Shown here: piece after piece, positions 1,777 to 14,000 of the stretch
Layout of the letters: each line of letters begins with the position of its first letter
Position numbering within the stretch: position 1 is the stretch's first letter
Assembly (NCBI GenBank): GCA_023133195.1
Contig: JAGLWW010000006.1
Location: forward strand, 1-14,003
Source: Candidatus Aenigmatarchaeota archaeon
GTDB taxonomy: Archaea > Aenigmatarchaeota > Aenigmatarchaeia > PWEA01 > JAGHBM01
DNA length: 14,003 nt
Reading direction: 5' to 3'
Notes under the pieces: generated by a model
The model's database searches: none
What the model was told of the DNA's origin: nothing
The model's input: only the letters and a program-made list of their open reading frames with translations
Made by a program: the position numbers and the translations under genes

Positions 1777-3017
1777 CTCCACTTCTTTAACGCAATCATT
1801 AGTTCTTTATGTTCTTTTGCATATTCTTTCAGGGTAATATTTTCTAAGGTCGCTTCAAGTGCCTGTCTCATAGCAAGAGCCCCTGCTTTGGTTCCTTTTG
1901 GATGCCCGTGAATTCCACCACCTGCCTGGATGATAATGTTTTTACCCAGAAGTTTAATTAGTTTTGAAACTAGTCCTGCATGTAATCCACCAGAGCAAAT
2001 CGCAAAAACAGGTTTTATGTTGCCCCAATCTTCCTCTAATGTATGCTCTCCTTCTTTCACAAACTTTTTTTCAATCTCATCTTCTATATGCAAAACTTCT
2101 TCTCTTTCTCCAATCATTTTTCCGACAACTGTTCCTATGTGCAATTGGTCTATTCCAAGCAATCTTGCTATATCTGCCACTACCAACATTGAAATTCCAT
2201 GATTGCCTCTTGTAAATGCTCCGTGTCCCGCACGGTGTCCGTGAAGAATTAAATTTAAACCTTCGTTTCTCAAGGTTTGTAAAGCCGACCAACCTGTAGT
2301 TATTATATCTATCATAGCACATTTTCCTCCTTCCTTTTCTACTAGTTTTGCCCTCCTTATCATTTCCTTAGTTTCTGCAGTGACATTTGGAACATAAATT
2401 TTTCTTTCTCCGGTTTTCTGTTCAGCTTTATCTCTCATTTTTAAGCATTCTTTTACATTATTCTCAAATCTGTTAAATTTTTGCGAAGTCAGATTTTCAT
2501 CCGATTTAACCAAATCCAGTCCTCCAATCCATGCCTCATACGCCACCTTCGCGTGCTGCTTGGAAGACAACCCGAGCTTCGGTTTTACTATTGTTCCCAC
2601 AAGAGGCCTGTCTTTTATCTTCAGAATTTTTCTTACGCCCTGTATCCCGAACTTAGGCCCCATAAAACTTTTCATTATATTCTCCGGCCATTTTATGTCC
2701 TCCAGCCTCAGCTTGTTAAGGGCCTTCATTCCAAAGATGTTCCCGCCTATAGAGCTCATAATCTGAGGCATGTTTCCATTTTCAAACAATTCGGAAGGAT
2801 AGGCAATCTTAATCCAGTTCCCGTGTATCTCAAAGACCTTCGCGCCGATTTTCTGTATGCTTGGCTTCATTGTCTTCAAGTCAGTCCATGTCCCGATAGA
2901 GCTTTCTTCCGCTATTGCTTCGGCAGCCTTGGAATAAGAAATATGGTTCGGCTCCACCCTGAAGCTACAAACCAAGTCATTCTTAGAAGGTTTGTATCTG
3001 AGGTTGACGTAACCCAT
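1773..3017 (-). CDS. rbcL: Ribulose-bisphosphate carboxylase, form III (archaeal)
   Basis: Complete 414-residue RuBisCO large chain that fixes CO2 on ribulose 1,5-bisphosphate, here probably in AMP salvage rather than a Calvin cycle. Active-site residues are all visible (spinach numbering in brackets): Glu38 (60) in EESSIGTW, Asn93 (123), Lys145 and Lys147 (175, 177) in TIVKPKLGL, the carbamylated Lys171 with Asp173 and Glu174 (201, 203, 204) in GGLDLVKSDE, His261 and Arg262 (294, 295) in HGHRAGHGAF, His293 (327), loop-6 Lys300 (334) in GTVVGKMIGE, Ser342 (379), and the phosphate-binding GGG at 366-368. Length and motifs fit form III; the usual Phe of GxDFxKxDE is Leu, and the residue after the Lys is Ser. 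A TATA-like box at 3043-3055 and GTGATT just before the ATG support the start. Base composition changes inside the gene: about 45% GC for codons 1-165, about 37% after. Confidence 0.97.
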   Translation of the reverse strand: MGYVNLRYKPSKNDLVCSFRVEPNHISYSKAAEAIAEESSIGTWTDLKTMKPSIQKIGAKVFEIHGNWIKIAYPSELFENGNMPQIMSSIGGNIFGMKALNKLRLEDIKWPENIMKSFMGPKFGIQGVRKILKIKDRPLVGTIVKPKLGLSSKQHAKVAYEAWIGGLDLVKSDENLTSQKFNRFENNVKECLKMRDKAEQKTGERKIYVPNVTAETKEMIRRAKLVEKEGGKCAMIDIITTGWSALQTLRNEGLNLILHGHRAGHGAFTRGNHGISMLVVADIARLLGIDQLHIGTVVGKMIGEREEVLHIEDEIEKKFVKEGEHTLEEDWGNIKPVFAICSGGLHAGLVSKLIKLLGKNIIIQAGGGIHGHPKGTKAGALAMRQALEATLENITLKEYAKEHKELMIALKKWS

Positions 3018-3396: not shown

Positions 3397-3429
3397 TCAC
3401 TTTTTCAGAAATACAGTCTGGGTCGGGAA
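3397..3429 (-). pseudogene. Detached copy of the mscS 3' end (10 codons plus stop)
   Basis: Read on the minus strand, this encodes FPTQTVFLKK then TGA, identical in protein to the last ten residues and stop of the MscS channel at 4388-4420. Thirty of 33 bases match and all three differences are third-position silent changes (Thr, Val, Phe codons). Similarity stops abruptly before the Phe codon and after the stop codon. It lies 18 bases beyond the HNH stop and in the same frame as the HNH gene, so it is not translated unless the TGA at 3448-3450 is read through. It is best explained as a remnant of a second mscS copy or as the far end of an insertion that included the HNH gene. Confidence 0.8.
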
Positions 3430-3447
3430 GGTTTTTAAACCTAGGAT

Positions 3448-4368
3448 TCACCTGACAGAGTCGATTCTCACGTACTGGTCGTCCCCTTCTTTTTTCTTCT
3501 CTTCCTCTTCTCTTTTTTCGGCCAGGTAACAGTCTTCACAGAGAGTCTGAAGGTTTTTCGTATCATTGTTTCCGCCCTCGGATAAAGGGATAATATGCTT
3601 TACATGCAATTTAGTTTCATTAAAATCTGTTCCGCATTTCACACACGTGTAATCATCTCTCTTTAGAACTTTGTCGCGTATTGATTTTGTTATCGGATGC
3701 CTGCCTCCTTTCCTGAATTCCTTTTTTTCGGTAAGTATTTTCTTTATTTTTTCGTCTATTTTTTTGGAAACAGCTTCAGTGACCAAATCCAATTTTCCTG
3801 AAATGTCTTCATGTAGTTTATCGGCAATTAACTTTACATCAGAACTGGAAACGTTTTTCATGCCTTCTCCAAAGGCTTTGTTAAATATCAAATTTATTTT
3901 TTCTCTCAACTTTTTGTCCTCATCTTTTTTCATCAATTCACTGATTTTTCCTTTTGTTCCAGAGACAACTCCTTTCCATCTCATATATTCCTTTAACCCA
4001 TATTCTTTGAAGTATCCCGAATCTTTAATTCTATCAGTGAAAATTAAGTCCAAATCTATTTTCTTTTTCAAAAAATATTTTCTAACAGAGGCCAAATCAA
4101 AAGGATTTTTCGGAATTCCAGAATTTTTTATAATATCCCAGTTTTTTTCTATTATTTTAGAAACATCTTTCAAAACATTGCTATCACTGAGATTTTTTAG
4201 CCTTTCCCACATCTTTCCCATTTCTTTCTCCAGTTTTTCTTTTTTTCTCATTTCTTCTAATATTTGGGTGTAATATTCTAACATAATATTTTCTAATTGA
4301 TTTTGTTTAGAGAATTTCCTTTTAATCTTGGATCTGGATTTTTTATGACTTTTTTTCTTTTTTTCCAT
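3448..4368 (-). CDS. HNH endonuclease-like protein with long helical N-terminus
   Basis: A 306-residue protein. Residues 1-215 are very Lys/Glu rich and predicted mostly helical, with coiled-coil-like stretches (24-60, 175-215) and a basic start (MEKKKKSHKKSRSKIKRKFS) that could contact DNA. The C-terminal domain (residues 222-285) is an McrA/PF01844-type HNH fold: RDDYTCVKCGTD with Cys242 and Cys245, HVKHIIPLSEGG with His255 and His258, Asn272 and LCEDC with Cys277 and Cys280. The last His/Asn expected right after the second Cys pair is Tyr281, so metal binding or cleavage may be altered. A strong GGGGTGATT site (4371-4379) precedes the ATG, 19 bases after the mscS stop, so the two genes can be co-transcribed. 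It is more AT-rich than mscS (sampled blocks about 27-37% against 40-47%). A copy of the mscS end follows it, which suggests a mobile or homing gene. The target is unknown. Confidence 0.85.
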   Translation of the reverse strand: MEKKKKSHKKSRSKIKRKFSKQNQLENIMLEYYTQILEEMRKKEKLEKEMGKMWERLKNLSDSNVLKDVSKIIEKNWDIIKNSGIPKNPFDLASVRKYFLKKKIDLDLIFTDRIKDSGYFKEYGLKEYMRWKGVVSGTKGKISELMKKDEDKKLREKINLIFNKAFGEGMKNVSSSDVKLIADKLHEDISGKLDLVTEAVSKKIDEKIKKILTEKKEFRKGGRHPITKSIRDKVLKRDDYTCVKCGTDFNETKLHVKHIIPLSEGGNNDTKNLQTLCEDCYLAEKREEEEKKKEGDDQYVRIDSVR

Positions 4369-4387
4369 TAAATCACCCCAAATATTT

Positions 4388-4420
4388 TCACTTTTTCAGG
4401 AAAACTGTCTGGGTCGGGAA
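4388..4420 (-). repeat. Native mscS 3' end, direct-repeat partner of 3397-3429
   Basis: This is the last 10 codons and stop of mscS. It is matched 991 bases away by the copy at 3397-3429, in the same orientation, with 30 of 33 bases identical. The HNH gene lies exactly between the two copies. Confidence 0.8.
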
Positions 4421-10401: not shown

Positions 10402-11832
10402 ATGATAAAGAAAAACCTGTATTTAGGACTTTTTGTAACAATGTTTTTAGTTTTATTTTCAATTTCCGTGCTTGCACCGGGAACTGAATCAACAATATCA
10501 GATTCATGCACAGATACAGATGGAGGTAAAAACTACTACGAAAAGGGCACTGCCACGATGGGAGGCACGTCCCTCTCTGATCACTGTAACTCAGACAACA
10601 GTCTTACCGAGAAGTACTGCTCCGATGAAGAGATAAAATGGGTGAAATATGAATGTCTCCATGGTTGCGAGAACGGGGCTTGTATAAGTGAAGCAGAAGA
10701 ATATGAAGAAACAACTTGCGGTGACAGCAAGTGTATGTATCCTGAAGATGATTACAATTGCAGAAAGGATTGCCTACCAAACTGTGGTGATGGAGTGTGT
10801 CAGGATTACACCTGCATGGCGTACGGATGTCCATACGGGGAAACCTCGAAAAACTGTCCGGAAGACTGCGAACCAGCCGAAGAAAGTTATTGTGAAGGTT
10901 TATCTTGGGAAGATTGTGAGTTAAATAAGAACACTTGCTGGTGGAGCACCTGTGACTGTTTGCCAGTGGGTCAAGCGTGCAACAAGGAACCATGTAAAGT
11001 TTTGAACAAAGATAAATGTACAGATGACTATTATGCATATTACTGCTGGTGGAGCGAGGATTGTAATTGTTTGCCTACCCATCAGTCATGTACGATTAAT
11101 ATTGAAAAACCAGATCTAAAAGTTGATAAGATAGAATATAAACTCGATAACGAAAACAACCCCACAAAAATATTCTTTTATGCAACTATTGTCAATATAG
11201 GAAACTCTGAATCTTCATTTTTTGATGTAAATGTACAAATACCGCAACTTAGTGTGTTTGTAAAAAATACTTGTATGAATCATAATCTTTTACCTGGAGA
11301 GACCTGTATAGAAACAGGTTATGGATTCAGATCTGATGAAGTAGCAATAAAAGGAAAAATTGATATAATTGCCATAGCAGACCCCAGAAACAACATTGAG
11401 GAAACTAATGAGAAGAATAACAAATTCGGAATTTCTCTATACGTTGGTGCAGAAAATAAAACAAGAGAAGAATCAATTTCTGTAACTGAAGAAGATTGTC
11501 CAGTTGGTTGCGAGTGTTATGGTGAAAAAATCATATGTGAGGCAATTCCTATAGAATCAAAAGTAAAATGCGAAACAGGATGTAAATTAAATAATAGGTG
11601 TGTTATTCAGGGAACTAGAACAGTTATAGAAGATAAAAGTTCTTATTGTGGAATAGATGGAATATGGCACACCCAAAAAGAAACTAATAAAACCTGCATG
11701 AACAACTATGAATGCACAACCAACTTCTGCTCCGACGGGGAGTGTTACGACATAAAGGGAGAACTTCAGGAAACCAAGGGAATTCTTGAAGGAATAATGG
11801 ATTTCCTGAGGTCCTTGTTCGGTTTTAAATAA
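10402..11832 (+). CDS. Exported Cys-rich protein with CARDB domain and C-terminal tail module
   Basis: A 476-residue exported protein with about 50 Cys, so disulfide-stabilised outside the cell. Order: signal peptide (1-25), a DSCTDTDGGKNYYEKGT repeat seen in other archaeal surface proteins (34-93), two CGDxxC...NCxxDC motifs (106-124 and 128-156), two tandem CxxL...CWWSxxCxCLP units (164-193 and 198-230), a CARDB adhesion-type domain (about 236-350, with DPRNNIEETNEKNN), a Cys module (366-432), and the tail (432-476) with CMNNYEC, NFCSDGEC and ETKGILEGIMDFLRSLFGFK. The tail helix is amphipathic and could attach to membrane or envelope. The TATA box at 10369-10381 gives a leaderless start. 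GC drops to about 27-35% in sampled blocks of the CARDB and Cys module and returns to about 47% in the tail. The next gene carries the same Cys module and tail. No enzymatic motif is visible; binding or adhesion is likely. Confidence 0.88.
   Translation: MIKKNLYLGLFVTMFLVLFSISVLAPGTESTISDSCTDTDGGKNYYEKGTATMGGTSLSDHCNSDNSLTEKYCSDEEIKWVKYECLHGCENGACISEAEEYEETTCGDSKCMYPEDDYNCRKDCLPNCGDGVCQDYTCMAYGCPYGETSKNCPEDCEPAEESYCEGLSWEDCELNKNTCWWSTCDCLPVGQACNKEPCKVLNKDKCTDDYYAYYCWWSEDCNCLPTHQSCTINIEKPDLKVDKIEYKLDNENNPTKIFFYATIVNIGNSESSFFDVNVQIPQLSVFVKNTCMNHNLLPGETCIETGYGFRSDEVAIKGKIDIIAIADPRNNIEETNEKNNKFGISLYVGAENKTREESISVTEEDCPVGCECYGEKIICEAIPIESKVKCETGCKLNNRCVIQGTRTVIEDKSSYCGIDGIWHTQKETNKTCMNNYECTTNFCSDGECYDIKGELQETKGILEGIMDFLRSLFGFK
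11695..11832 (+). repeat. Tail module, copy 1
   Basis: From the Cys codon before MNNYEC to the stop. The protein pattern is C-x3-YEC-x2-NFCSDG-x-C, a short linker and ETKGILE...DFLRSLFGFK. It is closest to the orphan copy at 13860 (most of the first 30 residues identical, with many silent base changes). Confidence 0.8.
11823..11830 (+). promoter_or_regulatory. Possible TATA box for the second Cys-rich gene
   Basis: TTTTAAAT at the very end of the preceding gene is centred about 24 bases before the ATG at 11851. With only a weak GGAA upstream, a separate leaderless transcript is as likely as read-through from the first gene. Confidence 0.35.
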
Positions 11833-11850: not shown

Positions 11851-12789
11851 ATGGCAGACAAAACCATGGCAGTGCTTTTGGCCGTTTTGTTTTTGTTTCT
11901 TTTCTCCCAGACTGTCCTCCCAGACGTAATGCTGGAAAAGACAGGTCAAGATACAGCCATGTACGGGGACCTGAAAATAATCTTTTTGGGCCATATTTAC
12001 GATTACTCGAAAAACAATCACGGTGCCAATCTAAAAATAAACGGCCTTGAGAAAACTGTTCTTCAGGGCGAATGCATCCTGAATGATTCCAACTGTCCGC
12101 TGAAAATTCCTAGTGGCGGTCTGGGAAAGTATGAAGGAATGAGTTACGCCATAATAGAGGAGGCGGCTACGGGAGAAACAGTCCAGCTTTTTGAAACGTT
12201 TGATGAAGAGTTGATTGTGGAAATGGACAAGGAATTTTCCTTCAACTCCAACTTGGAACAGATAATCCTTGTACAGGATTACGGAAACGAAGTCTACAGT
12301 AATTTGAGACTCAGGCTCCTTGAAATAGACCAGTCGCCAAGCGCTGACCTGGAGATTTTCGTTGAGGAAAACGGCATTGAAAAATCCCGGCGGATATACA
12401 ACATAAAGACAGGGTATGAAATCAAGGTATACGGCGTTAAAATAACATTAACTACTTTCACAGGGAGTGGCAGCATGTGGTCCTCTCCCTATTTTATTGT
12501 CAGAAATGATTATTTTGAGGAGTCTGTGGAAAACAGAAAGTGCGACGGTTGCCTTTACAAGGGATGCGTCCCTCCGGGTACAAGAATGACACTGAGTCCT
12601 AACAGGCCATATTTCTGCAGCGCAGAAAGAGTTCTAGAACCGCAGAGGGAGAACAGAGAATACTGCACCAGAAGTTATGAATGCAGAAGCAACTTCTGCT
12701 CCGATGGTATTTGCTGTGAAAAACAGGAAACCAAAGGAATCCTGGAAATGATACTGGATTTCTTCAGGTCCTTGTTCGGTTTTAAATAA
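11851..12789 (+). CDS. Exported protein sharing the Cys module and tail
   Basis: A 312-residue exported protein. The N-terminus is a signal peptide (MAVLLAVLFLFLFSQTVLP within residues 6-24; an ATG at 11866 is an alternative start). Residues 27-225 are two or more beta-rich regions, for example LKIIFLGHIYDYS, LEQIILVQDYG and LRLRLLEIDQSPSADLEIFV, with GYEIKVYGVKITLTTF; I do not recognise them. They look like surface beta-sandwich domains. From residue 230 it matches the preceding protein: CDGCLYKGCVPPGTR, then YCTRSYECRSNFCSDGICC and the tail ETKGILEMILDFFRSLFGFK. It lies 18 bases after that gene in the same direction, so the two are probably expressed together. The HEPN gene ends 3 bases after its stop, from the opposite strand. 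At about 48-50% GC in sampled blocks it differs sharply from that neighbour. Confidence 0.85.
   Translation: MADKTMAVLLAVLFLFLFSQTVLPDVMLEKTGQDTAMYGDLKIIFLGHIYDYSKNNHGANLKINGLEKTVLQGECILNDSNCPLKIPSGGLGKYEGMSYAIIEEAATGETVQLFETFDEELIVEMDKEFSFNSNLEQIILVQDYGNEVYSNLRLRLLEIDQSPSADLEIFVEENGIEKSRRIYNIKTGYEIKVYGVKITLTTFTGSGSMWSSPYFIVRNDYFEESVENRKCDGCLYKGCVPPGTRMTLSPNRPYFCSAERVLEPQRENREYCTRSYECRSNFCSDGICCEKQETKGILEMILDFFRSLFGFK
12664..12789 (+). repeat. Tail module, copy 2
   Basis: From the Cys codon before TRSYEC to the stop. It lacks the YDIKGE linker of copies 1 and 3 and ends FRSLFGFK, with the last 24 bases (AGG to the stop) identical to copy 1. It forms the left flank of the HEPN/MNT cassette. 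Confidence 0.8.
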
Positions 12790-12792
12790 TTT

Positions 12793-13290
12793 TTATATGG
12801 GAGGAACCAAAGATTTGAATCTTTTTCTAATATTTTCTATTTCCTCGATACACAATTTATTTATAAAAAGTTTGATTTGAATTAAGAAATTCTCAGCCTC
12901 GTTAATCATATCTTTAGTGGATTCTTTTGTGAGTTCAAGGTTTTCTTTTGACGTTAAATAATACTGTTTATCTATCCTTTCTTCCTTTGTAGAAGATATC
13001 TTTTTGAATAAATCAATTTTATTGAAAACTTTCTTAAGCAATAAAATAGAGGCGGAGTGATTTTCACATTTAATACCCGTTTTAAAAAGTAAAGCGGTCA
13101 GGGAGTTATACATAGCGTAGTATGACATAGAAATAGAATTTTCATACAGTTCATTTTTTAATAATATTTTGGCAGACTTTAAGCAATTATCTGCCTTTTC
13201 CAGGTATGAACTACAAATTTCCTCAGAAGCTTCCACCAGTTCTAACTTGCCATCTTCCTTGAGTTTACTCAAAAAACTTTGTTTTTTCAT
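12793..13290 (-). CDS. HEPN-domain protein, probable toxin of a HEPN/MNT pair
   Basis: A 165-residue all-helical protein. LEKADNCLKSAKILLKNELY (30-49), then SISMSYYAMYNSLTALLFKT (52-71) and GIKCENHSASILL (72-84) are the standard signature of archaeal HEPN domains partnered with minimal nucleotidyltransferases. The RNase-type RxxxxH of catalytic HEPNs is not clear; ERIDKQYY (104-111) occupies the equivalent place, like the RxxADY form in MNT-linked members. The start is taken as the ATG at 13290; an in-frame GTG at 13305 is the alternative. It overlaps the 3' end of the MNT gene by 26 bases, so the two are translationally coupled. Known pairs act as toxin-antitoxin systems in which MNT modifies or neutralises HEPN. 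It converges on the secreted-protein gene with three bases between stops and is much more AT-rich. Confidence 0.88.
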   Translation of the reverse strand: MKKQSFLSKLKEDGKLELVEASEEICSSYLEKADNCLKSAKILLKNELYENSISMSYYAMYNSLTALLFKTGIKCENHSASILLLKKVFNKIDLFKKISSTKEERIDKQYYLTSKENLELTKESTKDMINEAENFLIQIKLFINKLCIEEIENIRKRFKSLVPPI

Positions 13291-13819
13291 AGAATATTTC
13301 CACACCCTTCAAAATTACATGATTTTTAATTATTTCCTTTATCAATAAAGATGAGATATCAAATTTTCCTATTTTTACCCTGATTCTTGAGTTTACATAT
13401 TCTGTTTTTTCTTTGGTTTTCCTGCTCTTTGTTTCAATATAAATATCTATATCACTGTCTTTTTTCGCTGAGAATTTGGCATAACTACCGAAAAGAATAA
13501 CCATATTTTCATCGGTTTTCTTTAAAATATCATCTATAATTATATTTAATTCAGGATATTTTTTTAACAATTTAATCAATTTATATCTCTCTGCATTGAA
13601 AACATAATTTTTTGCTTGCAACCCTCCCTTTATGAAAAAAACCTTGTTCTTACCTTCTCTTTTGTAGTTCAGGGTATTTTCTTTTATTAGATTTTCCAAT
13701 CTTCTTTGAATTGTAGCGTGCGGAACTTTTAGAATTCTTGCTATATTTCTTAAATGATTTTCTCCCTTTAACAAAAGCAAAATTATTTCCAGTTCTAAAT
13801 TGTCCCTATTTTGAACCAT
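13265..13819 (-). CDS. HTH plus minimal nucleotidyltransferase, probable antitoxin
   Basis: A 184-residue fusion. The N-terminal winged helix (1-66) has LLLLKGENHLRNIARILKVP and ATIQRRLENLIKENTLNYKR, fitting binding to its own promoter. The nucleotidyltransferase domain follows (about 75-184) with MVILFGSYAKFSAKKDSDID (106-125): the GSY motif and the Asp-x-Asp pair that holds metal are intact. A downstream strand with KIGKFDISSL supplies the usual third Asp (154). In related pairs this domain adds AMP to the HEPN toxin. A TATA-like TTTAAATATT (13841-13850) lies 26 bases before the ATG at 13819, so this start is preferred to the ATG at 13828 and the TTG at 13870. The longer TTG form would overlap the orphan tail at 13860. 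The HEPN gene follows with overlapping ends. Sampled blocks are 22-30% GC. Confidence 0.88.
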   Translation of the reverse strand: MVQNRDNLELEIILLLLKGENHLRNIARILKVPHATIQRRLENLIKENTLNYKREGKNKVFFIKGGLQAKNYVFNAERYKLIKLLKKYPELNIIIDDILKKTDENMVILFGSYAKFSAKKDSDIDIYIETKSRKTKEKTEYVNSRIRVKIGKFDISSLLIKEIIKNHVILKGVEIFYEKTKFFE

Positions 13820-13840
13820 ATGTATCATATATAAACCATT

Positions 13841-13850
13841 AATATTTAAA
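13841..13850 (-). promoter_or_regulatory. TATA-like element of the MNT/HEPN operon
   Basis: TTTAAATATT on the minus strand, centred about 26 bases before the ATG at 13819. It lies only 10 bases from the orphan tail, so the cassette carries its own promoter up to the junction. Confidence 0.45.
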
Positions 13851-13859
13851 GCTTTCAAC

Positions 13860-14000
13860 TGTATGAACAACTACGAGTGCAAAAGCAACTTTTGCTCTGA
13901 TGGCGAGTGCTACGATATAAAGGGAGAAATCCAGGAAACCAGGGGAATCCTGGAACTGATAGTGGATTTCCTAAGAAAAATGTTCCTGTTCGGTGATTAG
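13860..14000 (+). pseudogene. Orphan tail module (copy 3) without its protein body
   Basis: In frame from TGT ATG to the stop TAG at 13998-14000, this encodes MNNYECKSNFCSDGEC, then YDIKGEIQETRGILELIVDF and LRKMFLFGD. It is a close match to the C-terminus of the protein at 10402 (CMNNYEC, NFCSDGECYDIKGE). An in-frame TGA lies 14 codons upstream, and there is no signal peptide or body, so a functional export substrate is unlikely. The match to copy 1 begins at the Cys codon, about 10 bases from the MNT promoter element. It is best read as the 3' end of a third paralogue, or of the gene at 11851, cut off by the HEPN/MNT cassette. A 45-residue small protein starting at 13863 cannot be excluded. 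Confidence 0.8.

Follow-up and report, generated by a model that had tools for sequence, protein, structure and literature searches.

Among the systems described to date, those closest in layout to the locus considered here are the mobile endonuclease ORFs (mORFs) of fungal mitochondria. In Glomus sp., for instance, the mORFs of atp6, atp9, cox2 and nad3 supply the host gene with a foreign C-terminus and push its native one downstream, and atp6 of Allomyces is cited as a further case in the same paper (PMC3630166). The similarity between the two ends found within Glomus atp6 is 63.5% in DNA and 91% in protein, and the displaced end differs from the end of a relative's gene by synonymous changes only (PMC3630166). 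At the level of the nuclease, the HNH protein of the locus shares with McrA, IscB and the Zorya protein ZorE a CxxC...CxxC HNH region, which occupies its C-terminal third. The final histidine of the CxxCH motif in such regions binds metal. Partial gene duplications can also appear at the boundary of a transferred segment when one side recombines through homologous DNA and the other forms a non-homologous joint, a process termed homology-facilitated illegitimate recombination. End joining at microhomology (PriSL) has been reported for archaea (PMC12019639).

The locus lies in a 14,003-nucleotide stretch of DNA from a Candidatus Aenigmatarchaeota archaeon, hereafter the window, which is one contig of a MAG comprising 826,970 bases in 178 contigs and approximately 80% complete. 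Read along the minus strand, a full-length mscS gene (5485-4388; 365 aa, a small-conductance mechanosensitive channel with Pfam MS_channel_2nd, MS_channel_3rd and MS_channel_1st) is followed by the gene for a 306-aa HNH protein (4368-3448), a second mscS end (3429-3397), after a further 34 nt orf101, which encodes an orphan 101-aa protein (3362-3057), and rbcL, encoding the large subunit of a type III RuBisCO (3017-1773; NCBIfam rubisco_III). A 19-nt spacer (4369-4387, minus strand) separates mscS from the HNH gene and contains GGTGATT, which we take to be a Shine-Dalgarno-like element. The nearest named relative of mscS among the contigs retrieved is labeled Woesearchaeota, and some of the RbcL relatives among the matches listed are labeled Aenigmarchaeota; from these labels alone, the organism would be classed as a DPANN-type archaeon.

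A preliminary description of this DNA had reported a repeat of the mscS 3' end with silent differences only and with boundaries falling at the stop codon and directly ahead of a Phe codon, and every part of that description is borne out. The final 10 codons of mscS with their stop (4388-4420, minus strand) agree with the second copy (3397-3429, minus strand), here called the relic, at 30 of 33 bases. Both translate to FPTQTVFLKK followed by a stop; the three mismatches, at bases 15, 18 and 21 of 33, all fall in third codon positions, and the likeness ends at the stop codon on one side and immediately before the Phe codon on the other. As read from the sequence, the relic shares the frame of the HNH gene beyond its TGA, with no in-frame ATG, GTG or TTG between the HNH stop and the relic's own stop. 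The best other match to the mscS 33-mer on either strand of the window is 20/33, and a degenerate pattern allowing up to three mismatches returned these two sites and no third copy in the 826,970 bases of this roughly 80% complete genome (a reversed-pattern control gave 0 matches). A common motif of the genome, which the preliminary description had raised as one possible explanation, is thus ruled out at this tolerance. As a further control, 1500 33-mers were drawn at random from the window; just two had a non-self match of at least 30, both of them 31. Other direct repeats of at least 26/33 in the window occur only among the tails of three surface-protein genes close to the right end. Other mscS genes do not share the feature: across 73 mscS loci with 179-4000 bases of downstream DNA (a set that includes the G003 locus described below twice and two distant MscS at 27%), no duplicated tail came near 30/33, the best being 24/33 in L066.

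Under unconstrained change, the probability that all three differences would be silent is 0.011-0.025, so the source of the relic was likely, although not certainly, a translated allele of a close relative. The view that both copies descend from translated mscS genes is accordingly retained as likely on the sequence; silent changes alone do not prove it, as the preliminary description had assumed, and a simple duplication that has since decayed neutrally would be compatible with them as well.

The sole other genome of the genus in our comparison, G003, provides the context in which the relic can be read. Its gene order, mscS-HNH-rbcL, matches that of the window, and the encoded proteins have diverged from those of the window to a similar degree: 67.4% identity for mscS (365 aligned residues), 68.9% for the HNH protein (305 aligned residues) and 72.5% for RbcL (414 aligned residues). 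The mscS-HNH spacer is also 19 nt long in G003 and shares the GGTGATT. Neither the second mscS end (best match 17/33 in 4000 bases downstream) nor orf101 was found in G003, and the gap between the HNH gene and rbcL measures 44 nt there versus 430 nt in the window. Because G003 has the same order, the same spacer length and host-like divergence, with no second end, the HNH gene behaves as an inherited neighbor of mscS. The piece specific to the window is then the mscS tail, the following 34 nt and orf101, lying between the HNH gene and rbcL. The 18 nt 3' of the HNH stop (3430-3447, minus strand; GGTTTAAAAACC) resemble the HNH-rbcL spacer of G003 (GGATTAAAATC) up to the proposed joint at their end, a short and merely suggestive likeness, and the relic starts directly thereafter. 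The preliminary description had read the arrangement as an insertion at the mscS 3' end that carried its own replacement end from a related allele, or as a duplicated mscS mostly replaced by the HNH gene; a copy derived most likely from a related, translated mscS allele by rearrangement survives from that reading, while the HNH gene as a newcomer confined to this DNA does not, given its presence at the same place in G003 with the same spacer and no second end. In G003 (L076 5512-6099, minus strand), a 195-aa gene, presumably flavodoxin/FMN-reductase-like as judged by eye, sits between rbcL and a 112-aa ORF; in the window, these two flanking ORFs overlap by 4 bases.

The relic matches the window mscS at 30/33 and the G003 mscS end at 23/33, and the functional ends of the two genomes match each other at 24/33. 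Since a relic older than the split would have diverged for as long as the genes themselves, and since this one lies closer to the mscS of the window than to that of G003, these alignments suggest that it is most likely younger than the split and arose in the lineage of the window.

Set beside the fungal mORFs, the window shares the succession of a host gene, an endonuclease ORF and a second host-gene 3' end downstream. It differs in several respects. The mORFs encode LAGLIDADG or GIY-YIG proteins rather than an HNH protein, and those of Glomus atp6 and nad3 are in phase with the host gene, whereas a 19-nt spacer sets the HNH gene apart as an ORF of its own. The repeated ends of the window are 33 bp long, encode the same peptide and agree in 91% of their DNA, unlike the more divergent atp6 ends (63.5% in DNA and 91% in protein), and, contrary to the mORF pattern, G003 likewise carries the HNH gene but has no displaced end. 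Our literature search found no report of this locus or of a prokaryotic mORF, although absence is not thereby proven.

The HNH protein itself (domain at residues 242-284) scores above the Pfam cut-offs for both HNH_5 (45.3 bits, cut-off 27.5) and HNH (41.4 bits, cut-off 21.4), and below the NCBIfam cut-offs for IscB (54.5 of 175 bits) and ZorE (21.5 of 600). Its likeness to McrA, IscB and ZorE covers the C-terminal HNH region only. In an alignment, the last position of the CxxCH motif, a histidine in McrA and IscB, is a tyrosine both in the window (Tyr281) and in G003. Full-length relatives occur in two of 156 genomes of the class and are confined to the genus; 12 other class genomes and four viral loci match in the HNH region only, and phage HNH families match the domain. 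With matches so limited, its classification as a viral gene or as a defense-system gene was rejected. A foreign origin suggested by AT-richness was likewise rejected: the third-position GC content (GC3) of the HNH gene lies below that of mscS in the window (0.34 versus 0.51) and also in G003 (0.60 versus 0.76). Within the gene, the last 44 codons (3448-3582, minus strand) have a GC3 of 0.57, compared with 0.27 before them (p 0.002). The structure model was poor (mean pLDDT 45) and was left out of the analysis.

The protein encoded by orf101 is predicted to be helical (mean pLDDT 75), and comparison of the model with the PDB gave no match at E <= 0.001. Its only relatives found are two metagenome-derived proteins, P0003 (64%) and P0004 (60%), and the gene occurs in one of the 156 class genomes, that of the window. 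A viral identity was rejected since no match was found among the viral loci and no PHROG at E 0.01, and a defense-system identity was rejected on just two marginal matches (E 0.008).

Downstream of the joint, rbcL presents an independent illustration of exchange between relatives. After codon 161 its GC3 drops from 0.56 to 0.24 (z 6.4, permutation p 0.0005, the floor of the test), and the break persists when conditioned on amino acids (z 6.7, p 0.001, again the floor); G003 rbcL has no comparable break (p 0.75). As background, 37 ORFs called mechanically on ten further contigs of this genome reached a |z| of 4.0 at most, and five had breaks with p < 0.05 (smallest 0.009). GC3 breaks are therefore not rare in this genome, and we rely on that in rbcL alone. 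Relatives of RbcL were taken as 120 listed of 7,466 matches. Compared with P0006, the window protein is 88% identical over residues 1-161, 70% over 162-360 and 100% over 361-414, and across these three segments P0006 ranks 1st, 16th and 1st among the 119 relatives listed. Over residues 162-360, P0006 and P0010 are 94% identical to each other, and the window protein is 70-71% identical to both; the best match to this segment among the relatives listed is 78%, with no closer donor found there. Trees of the first 60 proteins listed place codons 1-161 plus 361-414 with P0006 and P0010 (support 0.995) and codons 162-360 with P0027 (support 0.994). When single relatives were compared with the window protein in simple two-segment change-point tests, P0006 gave a significant result (p 0.004), P0010 (p 0.044) and P0007 (p 0.050) gave borderline ones, and P0009 (p 0.077), P0017 (p 0.30) and P0008 (p 0.34) gave nonsignificant ones; the first 30-40 residues of P0010, moreover, depart from those of both P0006 and the window. 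These results weaken the case for a mosaic. On balance, recombination between relatives inside rbcL is well supported independently of the mscS repeat, with codons 162-360 (1938-2534, minus strand) forming an AT-rich tract of different ancestry whose limits are approximate, the 5' one set by the GC3 break and the 3' one by the identity profile. The conflicting ancestry of neighboring segments that marks a recombination scar is found here next door to the joint rather than at it.

We consider it probable, at about 60%, that the second mscS end is a scar of allelic recombination in which an mscS-HNH chromosome was joined to an mscS-orf101 allele. After the split from G003, a chromosome of the order mscS-HNH-rbcL would have been joined illegitimately to the DNA of a close relative whose allele carried mscS and then orf101, 34 nt apart, without an HNH gene between them. 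The joint would lie approximately 18 nt 3' of the HNH stop codon, perhaps within a microhomology of a few bases (C/CTT); the likeness to microhomology-mediated or other illegitimate joining extends, on the sequence, to at most those few bases. Of the mscS of that relative, the final 33 bp would thereby have stayed behind as an untranslated relic before orf101. Ordinary homologous DNA would have provided the site of the other crossover, whether on the rbcL side, adding orf101, or within mscS, adding the HNH gene; receipt of the orf101 piece and receipt of mscS-HNH are indistinguishable because both give the same joint. An allele exchange within the lineage, with an HNH-free mscS giving way to an HNH-bearing one, is possible and would yield the same joint as well. 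The parental arrangement mscS-HNH-rbcL is present in G003; the other, mscS-orf101, was not seen, with orf101 in none of the other class genomes (156 including its own). We infer the mscS-orf101 parental allele, the joining at microhomology and the direction alike.

The HNH gene might instead be a homing element of mscS that cut an HNH-free allele approximately 30 bp before the stop and inserted together with a replacement 3' end, so that the relic would be the displaced resident end and orf101-rbcL the resident downstream DNA. The order of a carried C-terminus, an endonuclease ORF and a displaced native C-terminus is that of the Glomus mtDNA hybrids (PMC3630166), with an endonuclease-like ORF between two copies of a host-gene 3' end; the joint is as such a model expects, and phage HNH families match the domain. 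Against these points, we weigh the HNH gene of G003, which occupies the same place with host-like divergence and without a displaced end in 4000 bases downstream (although an old end may have decayed), the tyrosine that both orthologs have at the position of the last CxxCH histidine, and the restriction of full-length relatives to two of 156 class genomes, with the 12 others and the four viral loci matching in the HNH region only. On balance homing is unlikely. Its fuller form, an archaeal HNH homing into mscS as a prokaryotic counterpart of mORFs, in which G003 would hold an older insertion with a decayed end, while in the window an allele without HNH would recently have been invaded again, appears distinctly unlikely. 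Among the mscS relatives retrieved, those next after G003 lack an HNH gene, but are not syntenic with this locus.

A tandem duplication of mscS after the HNH gene, with the second copy later lost except for its last 33 bp and orf101 either incoming or already present, would account for a relic that retains its sense, its direction and silent changes only, and a comparable orphan gene tail exists on the same contig (13860-13991). It is nonetheless decidedly improbable: the genome of the window and G003 each hold a single mscS match at E <= 1e-20, and an extra large deletion ending 18 nt after the HNH gene would be needed. An assembly chimera of two strains comes to mind for a MAG of 178 contigs that is 80% complete, more so as the HNH and orf101 protein clusters (5 and 2 members) have one contig each and therefore offer no proof of the junction in a second assembly. 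Yet the longest exact runs common to the two ends are 14 and 12 bases, which makes short-k assembly collapse unlikely, and the cluster of the window RbcL (representative 100% identical) has two contigs, the longest of which, at 52,338 bases, exceeds that of the window; a chimera is thus very unlikely. We regard as extremely unlikely that the 33 bp are kept for a function of their own, be it as an RNA element, a binding site or a read-through tail of the HNH protein. Their little-changed state and position in the HNH frame beyond the TGA would fit such a role, but placement in frame has a chance of 1 in 3, the case is single and absent from G003, and differences at third codon positions speak for a coding past instead.

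Gene tails also recur elsewhere in the window. An orphan C-terminal tail of a cysteine-containing protein, surface-type as judged by eye (13860-13991, plus strand), is 80% identical over 44 residues to the tail of a 476-aa ORF (11695-11829) and related to that of a 312-aa ORF (12664-12786); its simplest reading is as a third tandem paralog, mostly replaced. A HEPN/nucleotidyltransferase pair (12793-13870, minus strand) is bracketed by these tails, much as the HNH gene is. The last 24 bases of the 476-aa and 312-aa ORFs are identical, and the last 46 codons of the former (11692-11832, plus strand) have a GC3 of 0.57, compared with 0.28 before them (p 0.003). An exchange of 3' ends between these neighboring ORFs is possible.

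The locus shows recombination between related lineages in an uncultured archaeon, with recognizable joints; a mosaic type III RuBisCO is among its traces. It further cautions against taking a nuclease gene for the mobile part simply because duplicated gene ends flank it. Were it true, conversely, that the HNH gene drives the rearrangement, the mORF way of spreading would extend from fungal mitochondria to archaea.
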